A DNA stretch of 38,221 bases. It comes from a virus. Below are positions 1,157 to 29,052 of the stretch, in pieces. A program made the translations under genes and the position numbers. Below the pieces are notes generated by a model. That model worked only from the letters and a program-made list of their open reading frames with translations. It was not told the DNA's origin and made no database searches. Each line of letters opens with the position of its first letter. The stretch's first letter is position 1. The stretch covers positions 1 to 38,221 of IMG/VR virus record IMGVR_UViG_3300023171_000027; one strand, given 5' to 3'.

Positions 1157-3334
1157 TTAAAAAGGCACATCTTGTTCGTTTTGAGGCGTTTGTACAAAAA
1201 TAGGTTCTGCAAATAAACGAACACCAAAAATAACTTTTCCCGCTCTCTTGTATGATTTATAAGTAATTTTGTTTTTTGTAAAAATATCTTTCACATCGTA
1301 CTTTGTAATATTTACAGAATGAATAACATTTAGGTATTGCAAAATTTGACCCTGATTTAATATTCGTTCTTCCGTTTTTTTATCTTCTGGCTCGATGGAA
1401 TAAATATTAAAAAACATTTCTTCAACTGGCATAATTTCAATATTTGATCCGGTATTTTCGTTTAAGAAATCAACATCTTCACTATTATAAATTTTCCAAT
1501 CAAAATCATTTCGCCACATATTAAATACTTCTCGCCAAAGATCGTCTGTACTTATTTTAATCATCGAATCATAATCTATAGATTCTACATTTATAGGCAA
1601 AATTCTTCTGTTTCCGGTAACATCTTTTAAAACATCACTCTCATTACTTGTGCCGGCTAATGATGCTTTACGTTTCATTTTTGAGTAAAAAGCCGAGTAA
1701 GGCAATCTTATGTCAATTAGGTTTGCATCTGCTATCTTTTTAAAATCTTTAACGTCCTTTGTCGCTAAACCTCCAAATTCATCATCTAAAACAATCAAAC
1801 CTTTAACCAAGTTGTAAATGCTGTCTTTGTCTTTTGCGTCTATCCTATGCTCAATTAAATACTTTCTTAATTCTTTTGGTAGAAGGTTACGAAAGAAAGA
1901 AGTTTTTCCGGTTCCCTGTTTTTGACCGCAAAGAACTAATGTAAGAGGAGAAACTTTTGTTTCATGTATTGGACTAATCCAATTATGAACAGACCCTACA
2001 AGCCATTTTTTAAACGCCCAACGATTATAATCGCTATTTGGTTTTATACAGTCTACATATTTATCAATGTTTCCTATTTCAAATTCTTTATTACTGAAGA
2101 AATCATTTAACGGATTCATAACCGGTGTTGCTTCAGAATTAATCATATCGCGAACGTCTGATTTATTCACGTTAAAATCTAAACAGTTTTTAGCAGAAAA
2201 GTAAATAGAGTTTAATTTAATATCATCTAAAACTTTACCACTTATAAATATTTCATTTGTAATGTAATCACGCGTTGGGTTGTAATTATCTAGTATAAAG
2301 TTTTTAAGTTGGCTTACTTCGCTATCTTCGCTTTCTACTGAAAAATCAGTTTTAGAATCAATTAAACTTTGTATTAATTCATCTCTAGGGGCTTCTAATT
2401 TTAAAACTTCTGTAACGTGTCTTTTTACGCTCTCTACCGTTGGCGTCCCTTGCGTTTTTTGAAGAGCAACTGTAGAAATAACTTTTTTGGTAAGGTTTGA
2501 ATAAACCTCGATACCTTCTTCTTTTACGTAATGGTAAAAAGTACCAATAGTAATTTGTCCAGGTCGGCAAAAGTTTTTATAATGCTTTTCAATATCCTTT
2601 TCATTATACTTTGATCCGTTTTGGCAAATAGATTTAAAATAATTTAATCCGGCTTCTCCAAACTTTGAACCGATAGCAAAACCTATATCACAATATCTTT
2701 TATAATCATCTTGGCAAATATCAATTGATTTTAATTTTTCTACTATTTCGCCAAAATCATCTTGAACAAAAACAAATTCCTGTTTTTTAGTTTTGGCTAA
2801 CTTTGATTTAGCAATAAACTTATTTGCTTTTTCATTATGGAAAATGTAAGGATCAAAAGAAAGATAACGTAAACGGTTTTTATTTTTACATGATTGGTCA
2901 ATCATTATATTAAAATTATCCCAATAATACTGCCCTAATTCATTAAACGATTCTAAGAATTTATTAGGATTAATTTTAACGAAAATACATAAACCTTCCC
3001 CGCCAAAAGAACGGTGCGAAACGAAAGTATATTTATCTTCATTTATTTTGTTTAGTAATTTTAAATCTACATCATCATCGATATCAATTACAATTAAACC
3101 GTTCAACTCTAAAATATTACTTTCTACTTTTGAACCCTGATTCATTACTGCCGATCCGGTTATTGCCGGCATCATATTTTTAAGTTCTTTGTATCGTGCC
3201 GGTTCTTTTTTAATTGCCCGAGCTGTTAAAACTACATCTTGATACTTACCGTTCTTAATAAGATCAATATATTCATCAAGTGAAATATCTGTTTTATTGG
3301 TGTCTTTAATGTTTTGGTAAAAGCTAAATTTCAT
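1157..3334 (-). CDS. Primase-helicase (BT4734/VirE N-terminal domain plus VirE ATPase)
   Basis: This 725-aa protein resembles the bifunctional replication proteins of Bacteroidota phages and islands. Residues about 70-180 form a BT4734/VirE-N-like primase region with IDIDDD (83-88) and HRSFGGEGLCIFVKI (107-121). Residues about 200-275 look like a PriCT-type linker domain. The C-terminal half is a VirE-type SF3-like ATPase: Walker A GQKQGTGKTS (470-479), Walker B LIVLDDEF (513-520), sensor-like GTSN (561-564) and TGNRR (573-577). It should prime and unwind DNA at phage replication. Its 5' end overlaps the helicase gene by 11 bp, so translation is probably coupled. The protein ends in NEQDVPF, an SSB-tail-like terminus. 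Confidence 0.9.
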   Translation of the reverse strand: MKFSFYQNIKDTNKTDISLDEYIDLIKNGKYQDVVLTARAIKKEPARYKELKNMMPAITGSAVMNQGSKVESNILELNGLIVIDIDDDVDLKLLNKINEDKYTFVSHRSFGGEGLCIFVKINPNKFLESFNELGQYYWDNFNIMIDQSCKNKNRLRYLSFDPYIFHNEKANKFIAKSKLAKTKKQEFVFVQDDFGEIVEKLKSIDICQDDYKRYCDIGFAIGSKFGEAGLNYFKSICQNGSKYNEKDIEKHYKNFCRPGQITIGTFYHYVKEEGIEVYSNLTKKVISTVALQKTQGTPTVESVKRHVTEVLKLEAPRDELIQSLIDSKTDFSVESEDSEVSQLKNFILDNYNPTRDYITNEIFISGKVLDDIKLNSIYFSAKNCLDFNVNKSDVRDMINSEATPVMNPLNDFFSNKEFEIGNIDKYVDCIKPNSDYNRWAFKKWLVGSVHNWISPIHETKVSPLTLVLCGQKQGTGKTSFFRNLLPKELRKYLIEHRIDAKDKDSIYNLVKGLIVLDDEFGGLATKDVKDFKKIADANLIDIRLPYSAFYSKMKRKASLAGTSNESDVLKDVTGNRRILPINVESIDYDSMIKISTDDLWREVFNMWRNDFDWKIYNSEDVDFLNENTGSNIEIMPVEEMFFNIYSIEPEDKKTEERILNQGQILQYLNVIHSVNITKYDVKDIFTKNKITYKSYKRAGKVIFGVRLFAEPIFVQTPQNEQDVPF

Positions 3335-4874
3335 ATTTTTTCTTTTTAGTCTCAGTGATTATTTTTTCAGTGTAAGAGTCGAATTTAACATGCTTGCTAT
3401 CTTTTAGAATAGAGCGCAAAATCTGTAAATATAAAGGTCTCAGATATTTAGTAAACCGGTCTTTGAATGATCCTTTGCGTTCGTGATATTCAAAGTTTTG
3501 CAAAGTGATATCAAATTTACATAAAAAAGTAACCCATTTTTGTTTTAGTATCTTAAATGTTTCAAACTTAGTATGTCCTTTTTCAATGTGAAAATTTATA
3601 TCTAAAGTTGGAATTACCGGAGCCGATTTTTGACCTTTAATTTTAAATTCTTTTACCGGTTTATCATCTTCATCTTCTTCAAATTCTTCTATTTCTGGAA
3701 TAGCTCCGCAATTTGGACAACTTTTATCTCTTTTAGGATATCTAAAACCGCATTCGTTGCAATCTATTTCTTCATTTAAAAAACTTTTACGTTGCCTGTC
3801 AAAAAATATCTTTCTCCAATCCCGATCGAAAGAAAAAATTCCGTGTTCTTCATTATTGTTTCCTCCATCAATTAATACGAAATAAGGCTTTTCTATTTTT
3901 GAAGTTTTACGCGCACCGCGTCCAGCTATCTGAATCCATAAAGAAAGGCTTTTTGTTGCCCTAGCCATTAAAATAACTTCAACATCACAAACATCAAAAC
4001 CTTTTGTAAAACAACCCGTATTTATTAAAACTGCATCCGGAGTATTTTCAAACCATTGAACAACATCTTTTCTATTTTCTCCATCCGTTTTGCTGTCGTA
4101 GGTTTTGATGTTTTTATCTGAAAATAATTCTGCATACAATCTATTAGTTTCAATTGCTGAGGTAAAAATCATTGTCTTTTTACCATCACATAATTTATCA
4201 AAAGTTTTGCGTAATGATTTGGTGTAACTCTCAGATTGAAATACTTTTTTCAAAGATGCTGCTGTAAATTCTCCTGAAGCATCTGTTTTTAACCCGGAAC
4301 TATCAAAATCAATATATTCGTCTTGTTGCCTGATTAAATAACCGTTTTCTATTAACCATGAAATGGGTTTCCCGCAAACAATATCGTCATACCAATCGCA
4401 CATTACTTCAACTTCAGTATGTAAATCATCTACCTTATGACGTGCTAAACGTACCGGTGTAGCTGTAAATCCAATTCTTTTGCATCCTGGTAAATAGGCA
4501 AATATTTTATTGAACTCCCAAATATGGCATTCATCAATAATGCAGTAATCAAACTTAGGCAATTTGCTTCTTCTGTTCCAAAGAGATTTTATCATTGCAA
4601 CAATCACTTTATTTTCAGGAATTTTTGTATTACCGGCTAAAACACACCCTACATCAATACCCTGTTTTGAGAATGTCTTAACAGTTTGCCTTACTAAATC
4701 TTCGCTATCAACTAATATTAATGTTTTAGCGTCTAAAAAGTCTACAAGCTCAGTAAAAATAACTGTCTTACCTCCACCGGTACTAAGTTGCACACACAAA
4801 CTTTCAACAGTGTCAAGTTTATAAATTATTTCGTCTAAAAGTTCTTTCTGGTAAGGGTATAAAGTTTTTTTCAT
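3324..4874 (-). CDS. SF2 DEAD/DEAH-type DNA helicase with C-terminal zinc ribbon
   Basis: This 516-aa superfamily 2 helicase has motif I STGGGKT (31-37), motif II DECH (114-117), motif III FTATP (136-140), motif V NTGCFTKGFD (285-294) and motif VI QIAGRGAR (315-322). A zinc ribbon follows, with CNEC (372-375) and CPNC (386-389), then an acidic linker. It resembles the UvsW/Type-III-Res-like helicases of phage replication modules and probably remodels forks or recombination intermediates. It is the first gene after the leader at 4875-4998, so this module's expression is probably set there. It overlaps the primase-helicase by 11 bp. Confidence 0.9.
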   Translation of the reverse strand: MKKTLYPYQKELLDEIIYKLDTVESLCVQLSTGGGKTVIFTELVDFLDAKTLILVDSEDLVRQTVKTFSKQGIDVGCVLAGNTKIPENKVIVAMIKSLWNRRSKLPKFDYCIIDECHIWEFNKIFAYLPGCKRIGFTATPVRLARHKVDDLHTEVEVMCDWYDDIVCGKPISWLIENGYLIRQQDEYIDFDSSGLKTDASGEFTAASLKKVFQSESYTKSLRKTFDKLCDGKKTMIFTSAIETNRLYAELFSDKNIKTYDSKTDGENRKDVVQWFENTPDAVLINTGCFTKGFDVCDVEVILMARATKSLSLWIQIAGRGARKTSKIEKPYFVLIDGGNNNEEHGIFSFDRDWRKIFFDRQRKSFLNEEIDCNECGFRYPKRDKSCPNCGAIPEIEEFEEDEDDKPVKEFKIKGQKSAPVIPTLDINFHIEKGHTKFETFKILKQKWVTFLCKFDITLQNFEYHERKGSFKDRFTKYLRPLYLQILRSILKDSKHVKFDSYTEKIITETKKKKYEI

Positions 4875-4983
4875 AACATATTATAAAAGTAAAATTCCAT
4901 TAAGTCGGCAGTAATGTGAGACGTGCCTTCCTAATGGAACCTTTATAATATTTTCGTGATGTATGTATCGCGTCTCACTTCAA
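4875..4983 (-). promoter_or_regulatory. Structured 5' leader of helicase operon, possible pseudoknot
   Basis: Two perfect 8-bp inverted repeats lie in the leader. Pair A is GTGAGACG (minus strand 4978-4971) with CGTCTCAC (4923-4916). Pair B is TTCCATTA (4939-4932) with TAATGGAA (4902-4895). They are interleaved in the order A-B-A'-B', the topology of an RNA pseudoknot, with connecting segments of about 31, 8 and 13 nt. The segment between A' and B' carries ACTGCCGACT, also found in the plus-strand attenuator region at 26974-26983. The leader would run about 110 nt from the predicted start to the helicase ATG. Confidence 0.5.
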
Positions 4984-4990
4984 TACACTG

Positions 4991-4998
4991 CAAATATA
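4991..4998 (-). promoter_or_regulatory. Promoter -7 element (TATATTTG) for replication operon
   Basis: TATATTTG on the minus strand is a perfect Bacteroidota -7 element. Unlike the other promoters here it has no TTG 19-20 bp upstream. That place is taken by the tandem AGCC repeats at 5010-5038, which suggests activator-dependent use. Predicted transcription start is near 4984. Confidence 0.6.
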
Positions 4999-26141: not shown

Positions 26142-26584
26142 AGGAATCTTTTGTTTACATCGAGCATTTCTTTTACTGACTCGGGAATTAATGTACTATT
26201 AAACTGCTTCTCACTCTCGTAATAAAACACTTTCAACATTTGCATAATAGGCTGAATTAAATCATCAGGGCATTCATTAGCCAAATAGCCAACATTTATT
26301 TCGACTGTTTTTACATCTGGAAATATAATGTACATTGTACGTGTTAAACTCCACGGCGCCGGATCTGTTTTTATTGAATTTACAGGATAATCGTAAATCT
26401 TAACTTGGCATGAACCCGTGTAAACTTTATCTCTTGCATATAATAAATGATTAGTACGCTTTTCAACATACATACAGCACGCATTAATCATCGAAGTTAT
26501 TTCCGCATCATCCTCTGTTAAATCAGGGTCAATACGTAAATAGTTTTTAGCTCTTGCAAGTGGTATAACGTCGATGTAAGCCAT
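26138..26584 (-). CDS. Head-tail connector (HK97 gp6-like)
   Basis: A 148-aa helical protein beginning MAYIDVIPLARAKNYLRIDPDLTEDDAEI, a classic opening of gp6-like connectors (LARAKNYLRID followed by D-D-A-x-I). It would form the ring directly under the portal. It abuts the 79-aa gene (one-base overlap) and precedes the adaptor gene. Confidence 0.85.
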   Translation of the reverse strand: MAYIDVIPLARAKNYLRIDPDLTEDDAEITSMINACCMYVEKRTNHLLYARDKVYTGSCQVKIYDYPVNSIKTDPAPWSLTRTMYIIFPDVKTVEINVGYLANECPDDLIQPIMQMLKVFYYESEKQFNSTLIPESVKEMLDVNKRFL

Positions 26585-26823
26585 TATAAGTCTTTGTTTA
26601 AATGCTTAATGTGTTTGTCGTGTTCTTCTGGTGTAAAAACAGTAGTAACTCCGTCTTTGCGTGGCTTCTGTAATTTCTTTCCTTTTGGATCTTTATAAGG
26701 GCTGGATTCTTTTACAAGTTCGCCTACTGCGGTACGAATTAAATAATTACCACGCTTATTTGTAACCTCAATAGTTTGAGTTGCTTTATTATCCAAATGA
26801 TCTTTTAATAATTTGATTTTCAT
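26584..26823 (-). CDS. Small capsid-region protein (79 aa)
   Basis: The first 38 residues (MKIKLLKDHLDNKATQTIEV, then NKRGNYLIRTAVGELV) match a small beta-rich domain often encoded beside head genes. It also resembles the C-terminal 41 residues of the glycosyltransferase at 27940-29052 (TIKIISVVQKYKIGEIVDLP, then ERALSAIKRGLAVLVE). The basic tail is variable. A TATCTTTG element lies upstream (26844-26851). The role is unknown but is probably linked to head assembly. Confidence 0.65.
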   Translation of the reverse strand: MKIKLLKDHLDNKATQTIEVTNKRGNYLIRTAVGELVKESSPYKDPKGKKLQKPRKDGVTTVFTPEEHDKHIKHLNKDL

Positions 26824-26843
26824 AACTATTAGTTTTATAGTTT

Positions 26844-26851
26844 CAAAGATA
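26844..26851 (-). promoter_or_regulatory. -7-like TATCTTTG upstream of connector genes
   Basis: The minus strand reads TATCTTTGAAAC, followed 16 bp later by the ATG at 26823. Without a clear -33 element, it could restart transcription of the connector and tail genes downstream of the oppositely oriented cassette. It faces away from the plus-strand promoter at 26864-26893. Confidence 0.45.
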
Positions 26852-26863
26852 ATAAAAATATTG

Positions 26864-26893
26864 TTGCGTATTTAAAAATAATTATTACATTTA
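26864..26893 (+). promoter_or_regulatory. Plus-strand promoter TTG-N19-TACATTTA
   Basis: TTG at 26864-26866 is followed after 19 bp by TACATTTA (26886-26893), matching the Bacteroidota promoter except for the last base. Predicted start is near 26899, giving a leader of about 118 nt before the gene at 27018. Confidence 0.6.
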
Positions 26894-26898
26894 CAATC

Positions 26899-27017
26899 TG
26901 AAATAAGAACACATAAATATTTACCAGAAGTCGGAAGCTGATAAATATAAAAACACAAACAAGACTCTTTAGAACTGCCGACTCAGTTTTATTGGGTCTT
27001 TTTTAATTTATATAGTT
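26899..27017 (+). promoter_or_regulatory. Putative transcription attenuator or small RNA leader
   Basis: Downstream of the plus-strand promoter, AGTCGG (26929-26934) can pair with CCGACT (26978-26983). This pairing uses the 5' arm of the terminator stem at 26980-26998, so the two structures exclude each other, as in attenuators. A third option pairs AAGACTC (26961-26967) with GGGTCTT (26994-27000). It could equally be a stable RNA of about 105 nt that ends at the terminator. Confidence 0.5.
26980..27004 (+). terminator. Rho-independent terminator ahead of plus-strand genes
   Basis: GACTCA, a 7-nt loop and TGGGTC form a 6-bp stem with one G-T pair, followed by six T. It lies between the predicted promoter and the first gene of the cassette, only 13 bp before the ATG. 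That is the position of an attenuator rather than of a gene-end terminator. Confidence 0.65.
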
Positions 27018-27263
27018 ATGAAATTAATAAATGTACAATACATAACCGAAAGTAGCGAAGCTTGCTTTTTCAATGTAACATTCGAAATTAAGCCTTTATT
27101 CAGACAAGCGATACAATTAACCAAAAGAGCTTATTTAGATAAGTATAGAAACAATGGTTACTCTCCATTTTATTATTGGTGTGAAGATGGAGAAAGAGGT
27201 GATAATTATGAATCAGTAGTTAACGAAATGATATTGCAACATGAACTAAATAAAAATAAATAA
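27018..27263 (+). CDS. Cassette protein 1, unknown function (81 aa)
   Basis: First of three plus-strand genes inside the minus-strand head module. It begins MKLINVQYITESSEACFFNV; residues 1-30 are beta-rich and the C-terminal half is acidic and aromatic (SPFYYWCEDGERGDNYES). No family recognised. The start lies 13 bp after a terminator, so expression probably depends on read-through. Its stop is 2 bp before the next ATG. Confidence 0.65.
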   Translation: MKLINVQYITESSEACFFNVTFEIKPLFRQAIQLTKRAYLDKYRNNGYSPFYYWCEDGERGDNYESVVNEMILQHELNKNK

Positions 27264-27265
27264 TC

Positions 27266-27658
27266 ATGAAAAATAAATCAAAAATACACAAGCTAACCTT
27301 TTGTGGCGAATTTATCAGAGAAATTGAATTTGATAAAGAAGAAGATTGTCCGTTACTAAACGCTAAAAGATTTTATCTAGGTGAAAAATTAGTTGGACTT
27401 ATGCCTCACGATGCTTCTTTCTTTGCGTATAAAGGCGAAATAATTCAATTATTAGGAGAAAATATGGATAATGAAGATTATTTTAAATTGTTGACAACTC
27501 CAATTCCTAAGGTTAAAAAAGAAGAATGTAATCACGGCACGCTTAAAAAATGCGTTTCAATGGACATGAAGGCACAGTATTTTCCAAGTGTGTTTTTTTA
27601 TTTTAAACCGGTTTATTTTTACAGATGTGATAAATGCCAAAAAGAATTTAATCTATAA
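27266..27658 (+). CDS. Cassette protein 2 with C-terminal zinc-ribbon-like cysteines (130 aa)
   Basis: The protein begins MKNKSKIHKLTFCGEFIREI. Near the C-terminus CNHGTLKKC (residues about 93-101) and YRCDKCQKEF (119-128) give two Cys pairs that could bind zinc. Phage moron genes with such ribbons may bind nucleic acid or proteins. No family recognised. A perfect 10-bp hairpin follows its stop codon. Confidence 0.65.
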   Translation: MKNKSKIHKLTFCGEFIREIEFDKEEDCPLLNAKRFYLGEKLVGLMPHDASFFAYKGEIIQLLGENMDNEDYFKLLTTPIPKVKKEECNHGTLKKCVSMDMKAQYFPSVFFYFKPVYFYRCDKCQKEFNL

Positions 27659-27662
27659 CCAA

Positions 27663-27688
27663 AAAGCCTGTACTAATCTACAGGCTTT
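27663..27688. terminator. Perfect 10-bp hairpin between cassette genes 2 and 3
   Basis: AAAGCCTGTA, loop CTAATC and TACAGGCTTT form a perfect stem just after the second cassette gene. On the minus strand it is followed by two further T residues, continuing a five-T run, and may act as a terminator. On the plus strand the T tract is short, so it may be a processing or partial-stop site. Confidence 0.55.
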
Positions 27689-27702
27689 AAAATAACAATA
27701 TC

Positions 27703-27960
27703 ATGAATAGATACGAAGGACTAAACGAACCACAATATAGAAGAATATCATACTTTGATGGTAATGATATTAAATATTATATAGAGAAGAAAAAAGGCAA
27801 TAAATGGGTTTTCTGCTTTGGTGGTTTAGATTACAAAGAAGCAACTGATTTATTAAGTAATCCAATAGAAATACAAAGACAAATAAAAACATTTAAAATT
27901 ACAGGATGTTGTTTTTTGGTGTTTGTAATTATTTCAGCGTTATACTTTATCTTCAACTAA
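27703..27960 (+). CDS. Cassette protein 3 with C-terminal membrane anchor (85 aa)
   Basis: An N-terminal soluble part (MNRYEGLNEPQYRRISYFDG and onward, with a charged YYIEKKKGNKWVF) is followed by one hydrophobic helix at residues about 65-84 (GCCFLVFVIISALYFIF). This predicts a tail-anchored inner-membrane protein. Its 3' end overlaps the end of the convergent glycosyltransferase gene by 21 bp. A superinfection-exclusion or host-interaction role is only a possibility. Confidence 0.6.
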   Translation: MNRYEGLNEPQYRRISYFDGNDIKYYIEKKKGNKWVFCFGGLDYKEATDLLSNPIEIQRQIKTFKITGCCFLVFVIISALYFIFN

Positions 27961-29052
27961 CACCGCCAACCCTCTTTTAATAGCCGATAAAGCACGTTCT
28001 TTTGGCAAATCTACTATTTCTCCTATTTTGTATTTTTGTACGACTGAGATTATTTTAATAGTCATTACATTTTCTTTATACCACTCTAAACACGAATCAA
28101 AAAAGCTTATCCAATGTTCCTCTTTGCCTAATTCCTCAAATTCAGGCACTTTTAAATCCCTTCGTAAAATATCTTCAAACGGGATATTATCCATTTCAAA
28201 AGGAACAATGTAACCGTTGATGCCGTTTGTAATTTGCTCTTTACCGGATGCAAAAGGAGTTATTATGCATGGCGTTTTTACCTGCATTGCTTCATAAACT
28301 GAGTATGCGAATCCTTCTGTATCGGATAACTGAACTAAATAATCAGCTTTGTTAATTTCTTTGTGGGGTTCTGTTGTGATTCCTTTGAAATGTACTTTAG
28401 GACAATTAACAAACTGCTTCATTAAAGTAATAGCATATTGGCTTGATGTATCACCCCAAACATTCCAAATGTATTCAATACCCTTTTCATCCAATTGCTG
28501 TGCCAATTGCTTCATTCGTTTAAACCCTTTTTCTCCAGACAATCTAGAGCAAGTGATCAGCGTTAAAACTTTATTTTTAGGCTTTTTGGCATGCTTTATT
28601 GTATTATCTAATAGATTATATATAATCGCATCGCTTTTTAATTTAGTAACGTGTTCGAATCCTATTTTAACAGTTTCTCCAACGCAAACATGATGTGTTG
28701 TTAATGGATGCTTTTTGTAATTAAATGCCCATCCTTCGATTATGTGTCTATAGTCAGCATGAACCATTTGAATGTAACATTTAGCCTTAATACAATCAAA
28801 GGCGCTCTTTCCCCATGCAGAGCTTGATATAAATAAATCAAACGAATATGTTTGTTTAAAATTAACCTTTACAACTTCGCAATAGTACTGCATTTCATCT
28901 ACTAATGATTGACTTGCAACATTATCATAAAGCAAAGTAACATTGTAGTAAACCGACATTCTTTTGCAGAAATTCTTTGTCATGGTCTCAACTCCGCCTA
29001 GCATATTCCAATTGCTTAAATATATTCCGATAGTTTCTTTTCGTTTTTCCAT
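27940..29052 (-). CDS. Glycosyltransferase (GT4-like) with capsid-region C-terminal domain
   Basis: Residues 1-325 form a GT-B fold glycosyltransferase of family-4 type: LGGVE (18-22) in the N-terminal domain, SRLSGEKG (169-176) at the nucleotide-sugar site, and the EX7E motif in DTEGFAYSVYEAM (E246 and E254). No signal peptide is seen. The last 41 residues (from MTIKIISVVQKYKIGE) resemble the small head-associated domain encoded at 26584-26823. Encoded between the capsid and connector genes, it may glycosylate a virion protein during assembly, or act on a host glycan. The position after a terminator-like hairpin suggests lower expression than the capsid gene. Confidence 0.85.
   Translation of the reverse strand: MEKRKETIGIYLSNWNMLGGVETMTKNFCKRMSVYYNVTLLYDNVASQSLVDEMQYYCEVVKVNFKQTYSFDLFISSSAWGKSAFDCIKAKCYIQMVHADYRHIIEGWAFNYKKHPLTTHHVCVGETVKIGFEHVTKLKSDAIIYNLLDNTIKHAKKPKNKVLTLITCSRLSGEKGFKRMKQLAQQLDEKGIEYIWNVWGDTSSQYAITLMKQFVNCPKVHFKGITTEPHKEINKADYLVQLSDTEGFAYSVYEAMQVKTPCIITPFASGKEQITNGINGYIVPFEMDNIPFEDILRRDLKVPEFEELGKEEHWISFFDSCLEWYKENVMTIKIISVVQKYKIGEIVDLPKERALSAIKRGLAVLVEDKV

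Follow-up and report, generated by a model that had tools for sequence, protein, structure and literature searches.

Kissing-loop leaders with intrinsic terminators, a putative attenuator family in phages of Flavobacteriia

The leader preceding a three-gene plus-strand cassette in the 38,221-base virus record analysed here (the window, G000) probably belongs to a cis-acting attenuator family of phages of Flavobacteriia, in which the loop of a small 5' hairpin, P1, would kiss the apical loop of an intrinsic terminator. At the level of sequence, comparison establishes the architecture of these leaders, their covariation, their spread and their link to cargo genes, and the existence of a kissing-loop leader family is well supported. 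An attenuating effect on transcription, and the sign that the kiss gives it, are inferred. The leaders look like an apparently undescribed, widespread regulatory RNA of phages infecting Flavobacteriia.

The minus strand of the window carries the late operon of a tailed phage, with genes for the terminase, portal, Mu-F-like protein, protease, capsid, glycosyltransferase and connector. Judged by sequence similarity its host is likely flavobacterial, since a 766-residue tail-region protein has matches in only 12 named phage records, all of them Flavobacterium or Cellulophaga phages. The cassette (26864-27960, plus strand) is flanked by the glycosyltransferase gene and a small ORF preceding the connector gene. 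It holds the three ORFs of 81, 130 and 85 residues that had been predicted. The first (27018-27263) has no assigned function; neither Pfam nor PHROGs gave a match below an E-value of 0.1, and a search of viral contigs returned zero relatives. The second (27266-27658) has a C-terminal zinc-ribbon-like stretch, CNHGTLKKC...CDKCQKEFN, with a Pfam match to Zn_ribbon_8 (E = 0.02) that does not reach the cut-off; by eye, a cassette ORF of the related locus L012 has a similar CNHGTLKKC...CDKC stretch. The third (27703-27960) has a probable C-terminal membrane segment and matches phrog_33755 (E = 0.0035), a PHROG of unknown function. A sequence scan revealed the hairpin AAAGCCTGTACTAATCTACAGGCTTT (27663-27688) separating the second and third ORFs; near-identical copies in L010 and L012 each precede other cassette ORFs, and it is perhaps a second module boundary or terminator.

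The plus-strand promoter-like element of the original prediction is present at 26864-26893 and is of Bacteroidetes type, with TTG at 26864-26866, a spacer of 19 nucleotides and the -7 box TACATTTA at 26886-26893. This box differs at one base from the Bacteroidetes consensus TANNTTTG, as given in PMC6847099, and it recurs, with its upstream sequence, in the leader-bearing relatives examined. In the computed fold, P1 (26917-26948) reads ATATTTA-C-CAG-(AAGTCGGAAG)-CTG-A-TAAATAT, with AAGUCGGAAG as its loop and the kissing segment AGTCGG at 26929-26934. The terminator hairpin (26961-27000), whose start lies 32 nucleotides from that of the loop 1 segment, is 40 nucleotides long and consists of seven base pairs, a UU/UU internal loop, eight base pairs and the hexaloop CCGACU; its sequence is AAGACTC-TT-TAGAACTG-(CCGACT)-CAGTTTTA-TT-GGGTCTT, with a folding energy of -16.2 kcal/mol. 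Both fold and comparison identify this apical loop (26978-26983) as the second kissing segment. Six T follow at 26999-27004, ending, as predicted, 13 nucleotides short of the first ATG (27018). A promoter, a leader and a GC-containing hairpin with a T-run thus lie ahead of the first ORF. This supports the view that a plus-strand accessory cassette, set in a minus-strand head module, is preceded by a regulatory leader that ends in an intrinsic terminator. Of 200 dinucleotide shuffles of the leader, 198 fold less stably than the leader itself (z = -2.95). Generic scans for promoters and terminators in this region gave no clear excess over shuffles, so the case for the window leader rests on comparison.

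Relatives of this genomic site were gathered by a capsid-protein search, which gave 17 loci, and by a connector-alignment search, which gave 73; leaders free of any loop constraint came from a scan with the promoter sequence only and from the locus search. In L003, the stretch aligned to 26832-27023 (192 bases) shows 99% identity, whereas the aligned flanks are mostly at about 69-87% and the cargo ORFs are different. The leaders can be classified by their loops. Class A has AGTCGG/CCGACT (window, L003, L006, L021, L044, L067 and L069), class B GGTCTG/CAGACC (L007, L025 and L057), class C GTCCGAC/GTCGGAC (L008), class D TCGCTACAA/TTGTAGCGA (L010, L035 and L043) and class E, in other phages, ACCGCCAA/TTGGCGGT (L034, L039 and L040). 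Class F (L012, L047 and L058) has no visible loop pairing. In classes B to E, loop 1 has been swapped jointly with its partner, giving loops that are unrelated yet complementary: the P1 loop complements the apical loop of the terminator, with compensation.

Leader and cargo co-occur at the site. Among 58 records that span it, 16 have a leader (seven of class A, three of B, one of C, three of D and two of F), 41 are empty, with neither cargo nor leader, and one, L086, has plus-strand ORFs with no recognised leader. The cargo varies: in L003, for example, it includes a probable lipoprotein, and at other loci it consists of ORFs of unknown function. The two class F leaders at the site are those of L058 and L065; the class is also found in L047/L050, where the site is not spanned. 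Its terminator is present, but no loop pairing of at least six nucleotides was found where tested (L058 and L012). In L012, L047 and L058 this terminator is AAAGCACC...GGTGCTTT, accompanied by a separate hairpin with a GAAGT loop, the stem of which has changed on both sides. Class F without loop pairing, the cargo of L086 without a leader and a weak T-run in a second leader of the window (see below) count against the attenuator family.

Across 13 distinct class-A leaders, 81 of 91 P1 cells are paired and six of the seven pairs have changed on both sides. For the terminator, 192 of 195 cells are paired once the UU/UU positions (2 of 26 paired) are set aside, and 6 of its 15 pairs have both-side changes. 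The pattern used to find class A fixed both loops, and loop identity within that set is no evidence. For ten leaders picked by promoter, locus or P1 framework rather than by loops, the 5' region matches the leader's own terminator loop over at least six nucleotides in eight cases, against 3 of 90 when loops are swapped. A scan with the P1 stem fixed and the seven nucleotides of loop 1 free returned 16 distinct leaders, every one with a full seven-nucleotide complement in the terminator loop, 17-18 nucleotides past the end of the pattern; they contain three distinct loops, which match in 3/3 own and 0/6 swapped combinations.

The converse scan (framework G) fixed the internal loop and upper stem of the terminator (TGATAAAG, eight free nucleotides, CTTTTGAT), leaving loop 2 free, and matched at least 120 IMG/VR stretches, chance matches included. 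Among the matches listed, 98 are distinct, and all 48 that are terminator-like (a lower stem of at least five base pairs and a T-run) have a perfect seven-nucleotide partner within 90 nucleotides upstream. Such a partner also occurs in 11 of the 50 listed matches that have no clear terminator, which are either shortened members or noise. The 48 terminator-like matches comprise nine loop types, with 9/9 own and 5/72 swapped combinations matching. Given the eight of ten own against three of 90 swapped matches, and the 48 of 48 of the second scan, the complementarity of AGTCGG and CCGACT is more than chance. From the start of loop 1 to that of the terminator, 30-32 nucleotides are found in 46/48 framework-G and 14/15 class-A leaders, the class-A exception being L129 with 36. 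The distance from the end of the -7 box to loop 1 is 9-11 nucleotides in all 48 framework-G leaders and ranges from 10 to 87 in class A. The geometry is thus constant despite unrelated sequences across leaders.

A second leader of the same kind is present on the minus strand of the window (4875-4998), with its -7 box at 4998-4991, P1 at 4988-4963 and a second hairpin at 4939-4895; the P1 loop is GTGAGACG (4978-4971) and the loop of the second hairpin CGTCTCAC (4923-4916). Its T-run, TTTTACTTTT, is weak, and 3' of it lies a helicase gene (3324-4874, minus strand; PHROG 16 DNA helicase, E = 2e-64). A match to CTGCCGACT near 4900, considered as a class-A copy, turned out to be part of the other hairpin of this leader. 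The cultured phage mumin6-1 contains its counterpart with a double change, GTGGAACG/CGTTCCAC; between the helicase-side leaders of hattifnatt9-1 and mumin6-1, GTGAGACG/CGTCTCAC changes to GTGGAACG/CGTTCCAC in a coupled manner within an almost identical framework. Among cultured Baltic Flavobacterium phages, 34 records have a match that covers 80% or more of a framework-G query, and in the two examined the leader ends where an annotated endonuclease gene starts. Scanning of named phages gave convincing members in FCL-2 (37483) and phi10:1 (10247, with a wider -7 box), a doubtful one in FPSV-F7 and none in 11b. Against named phages, a DNA similarity search with 26401-28500 and a GGACTAG-type query each gave zero matches and the class-A query only weak ones (E of about 3). 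Neither the connector profile nor the class-A pattern found bacterial or prophage copies in genome contigs.

Framework leaders often lie directly 5' of HNH or GIY-YIG ORFs, that is, of homing endonucleases. Ten downstream ORFs were searched against Pfam: five contain NUMOD4 and/or HNH_3 (L003, L012, L014, L026 and L043), two GIY-YIG (L007 and L048) and gp54 of phage FCL-2 Phg_2220_C, while the L008 ORF has no Pfam match. The tenth, which follows the class-A leader of L119, is PAPS-reductase-like by Pfam; the class-A leader of L125 is followed by a similar ORF and that of L120 by a pentapeptide-repeat-like ORF. In L187, L226 and L256 the ORF after the leader, of about 515 residues, resembles the window helicase by eye. 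The leader is thus not confined to late modules, the same type also standing ahead of homing endonucleases and a helicase gene.

Transposing these features to a mechanism, a sigma-A-type promoter would start the RNA, after which P1, a linker and then the terminator hairpin would form; the apical loop of the latter would pair with the P1 loop, the first ORF beginning a few nucleotides past the T-run. Most transcripts would stop there, giving a terminated RNA about 100 nucleotides long, and the kiss, forming co-transcriptionally, may set the share of polymerases that read through. In the guanidine-IV riboswitch of mepA, a kissing loop involving the hairpin that is to become the terminator reportedly hinders completion of its stem, leading to read-through (PMC11611296), and it is on this account that a kissing-loop attenuator is proposed here. 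By that analogy, we favour a kiss that hinders closure of the lower terminator stem and allows limited read-through, although the opposite sign, with the kiss locking the terminator, may also apply. Either way, read-through would be low and adjustable, suiting genes that are costly when over-expressed, such as homing endonucleases, accessory genes and early replication genes. The element may simply give basal low expression, or it may respond to the speed or state of the polymerase or to a protein.

The likeness to guanidine-IV lies in the two-hairpin leader and in a kissing loop that meets the hairpin becoming the terminator. Guanidine-IV senses guanidine, whereas the loops and internal loops of the phage leaders are unrelated between classes, and we do not find its conserved ligand-binding loop nucleotides in them. 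Since no loop or internal-loop sequence is common to the classes, we read the element as a device of RNA topology rather than a ligand aptamer, and the hypervariability of the loops makes a ligand riboswitch, which had also been considered, unlikely. Unlike guanidine-IV, the leaders occur in phages of Flavobacteriia and have no Rfam match: none reaches the gathering threshold in the window, and in 17 relatives only a tRNA and two DUF805b matches were obtained, all outside the leaders. The DUF805b RNAs lie near the small ORF in L008 (7040-7071) and L044 (261-292) and are absent from the window. A permissive search of the leader gave VR-RNA as the best match, at 24.6 bits far below its gathering score of 100. 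Our searches of open-access PMC papers gave no description of such a leader; the type has probably been missed so far because the loop sequences vary freely and the contact defining it is a pseudoknot.

The terminated RNA of about 100 nucleotides could itself be the product, a stable small RNA acting in trans as a decoy, an antisense RNA or a protein-binding RNA, its 5' end closed to its 3' end by the kissing fold and the ORFs riding on read-through. The compact fold and the fixed spacing would suit such a role, as would a class-A terminator stem that is nearly invariant while the P1 stem drifts. In L067, L069 and L083 a tRNA-like stretch (TTTAGTTTAATGGTAAAACG...CAAGTTCGACCCTTGCAGCACAGC) lies between the -7 box and P1 of the class-A leader, also in line with a trans-acting RNA, although ARAGORN called no tRNA in L067 or L069. 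We nevertheless regard this role as unlikely: the leader lies a few nucleotides from the start codon in nearly every case, the 41 empty sites have no leader and no conserved sequence fit to be a common target is apparent. A packaging-RNA-like role was rejected, the element being absent from 42 of the 58 spanned sites. Type III toxin-antitoxin systems are characterised by tandem antitoxin-RNA repeats before a terminator and a ToxN/AbiQ-type endoribonuclease downstream; a ToxIN-like system was likewise rejected, as there are no direct repeats within 26824-27960, the three ORFs have no ToxN/AbiQ-type match in Pfam or PHROGs and the cargo differs between relatives.

A further possibility, to which we give somewhat less credence still, is that the hypervariable loop pairs are addresses. 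Each leader RNA would recognise itself and siblings with the same loops but no others, so that terminated RNA from one copy or from a resident phage would act in trans on any nascent leader of its own type. In the genomes examined that have two loop-pairing leaders, for example the window, L003, L007, L043, L067, L119, L216, hattifnatt9-1 and mumin6-1, the two loop pairs differ, which is compatible with such addresses. Mobile and early phage genes would then be under an RNA-based control of dosage or superinfection, with incompatibility groups like those of plasmids. In the antisense attenuation of pT181 and pIP501 and in RNAI/RNAII of ColE1, short fully paired loops start the RNA-RNA contact that decides on termination or maturation. 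There, two RNAs come from opposite strands; in the phage leaders, both loops are in one RNA.

It is improbable that the structure acts mainly on translation or RNA stability, through 5'-end protection or spacing from the start codon, with a secondary role for the T-run. The hairpin does end close to the start codon, initiation in F. johnsoniae is tuned by structure near that codon (PMC6847099) and, in phage T4, hairpins in the RNA hold back the translation of homing endonucleases (PMC2988022). Against this, a T-run comes after the stem in the class-A leaders examined and in framework G (where a T-run was required), and the AU-rich stretch 5' of the ATG stays unpaired.

The original prediction of a classic attenuator, in which pairing of AGTCGG with CCGACT and a GACTCA/TGGGTC terminator exclude each other, has very little left in its favour. 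The two segments are complementary and their interaction is conserved in relatives, and the short hairpin does overlap the helix they form. But that hairpin has just -6.4 kcal/mol in the window, against -16.2 for the 40-nucleotide one, and across the 13 class-A leaders it never exceeds -6.4 in stability, while the long hairpin ranges from -15.3 to -17.7. It shows no changes on both sides in the 13 relatives and has lost a pair in three (L120, L124 and L129). Of the two helices expected to be conserved in related phages, the loop-loop helix is and the short terminator helix is not. Moreover, the conserved pairing sits in the apical loop of the larger hairpin alone, in classes A to E and in both framework-scan sets, where the full terminator stem is kept and is compatible with it. 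Chance complementarity combined with shared ancestry of a few leaders is refuted for the family by the tests of own against swapped loops and the free-loop scans, even though six-nucleotide matches near a terminator loop are not rare in AT-rich DNA (a permissive whole-locus scan gave 44/427, modestly above a null mean of 26.6, and a first, too crude promoter-anchored scan 3/44 against 0.8) and single weak members may possibly have arisen by chance.

For the favoured kissing-loop attenuator, the homing endonucleases of phage T4 provide an independent precedent by analogy: RNA structure and a promoter of their own limit expression of I-TevI, SegB and MobE (PMC2988022). What is alike is an RNA structure and an own promoter ahead of mobile phage nucleases. 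The T4 structures hide the ribosome-binding site and a late promoter cuts them out; in the leaders described here the structure is instead a terminator with the promoter on its 5' side, and its loop would be kissed by a second hairpin. The leader family offers naturally orthogonal kissing-loop terminator parts and a testable handle on the timing of early, accessory and homing-endonuclease genes in phages of an under-studied phylum, and its members in mumin6-1 and hattifnatt9-1 are in cultured phages with known laboratory hosts.

The cassette is akin to morons, accessory genes that sit inside a late operon and have a promoter and a terminator of their own. It likewise places accessory genes under a separate promoter amid late genes, but its terminator precedes the genes instead of following them and carries the kissing loop. 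Class-A leaders with a cassette were also observed in seemingly other surroundings (L119, L120, L121-L125 and L129). In L121/L122 and L123, the sequence just 5' of the leader resembles, by eye, the last part of a same-strand gene of capsid type, so that the terminator would sit there in sense orientation within a late operon.
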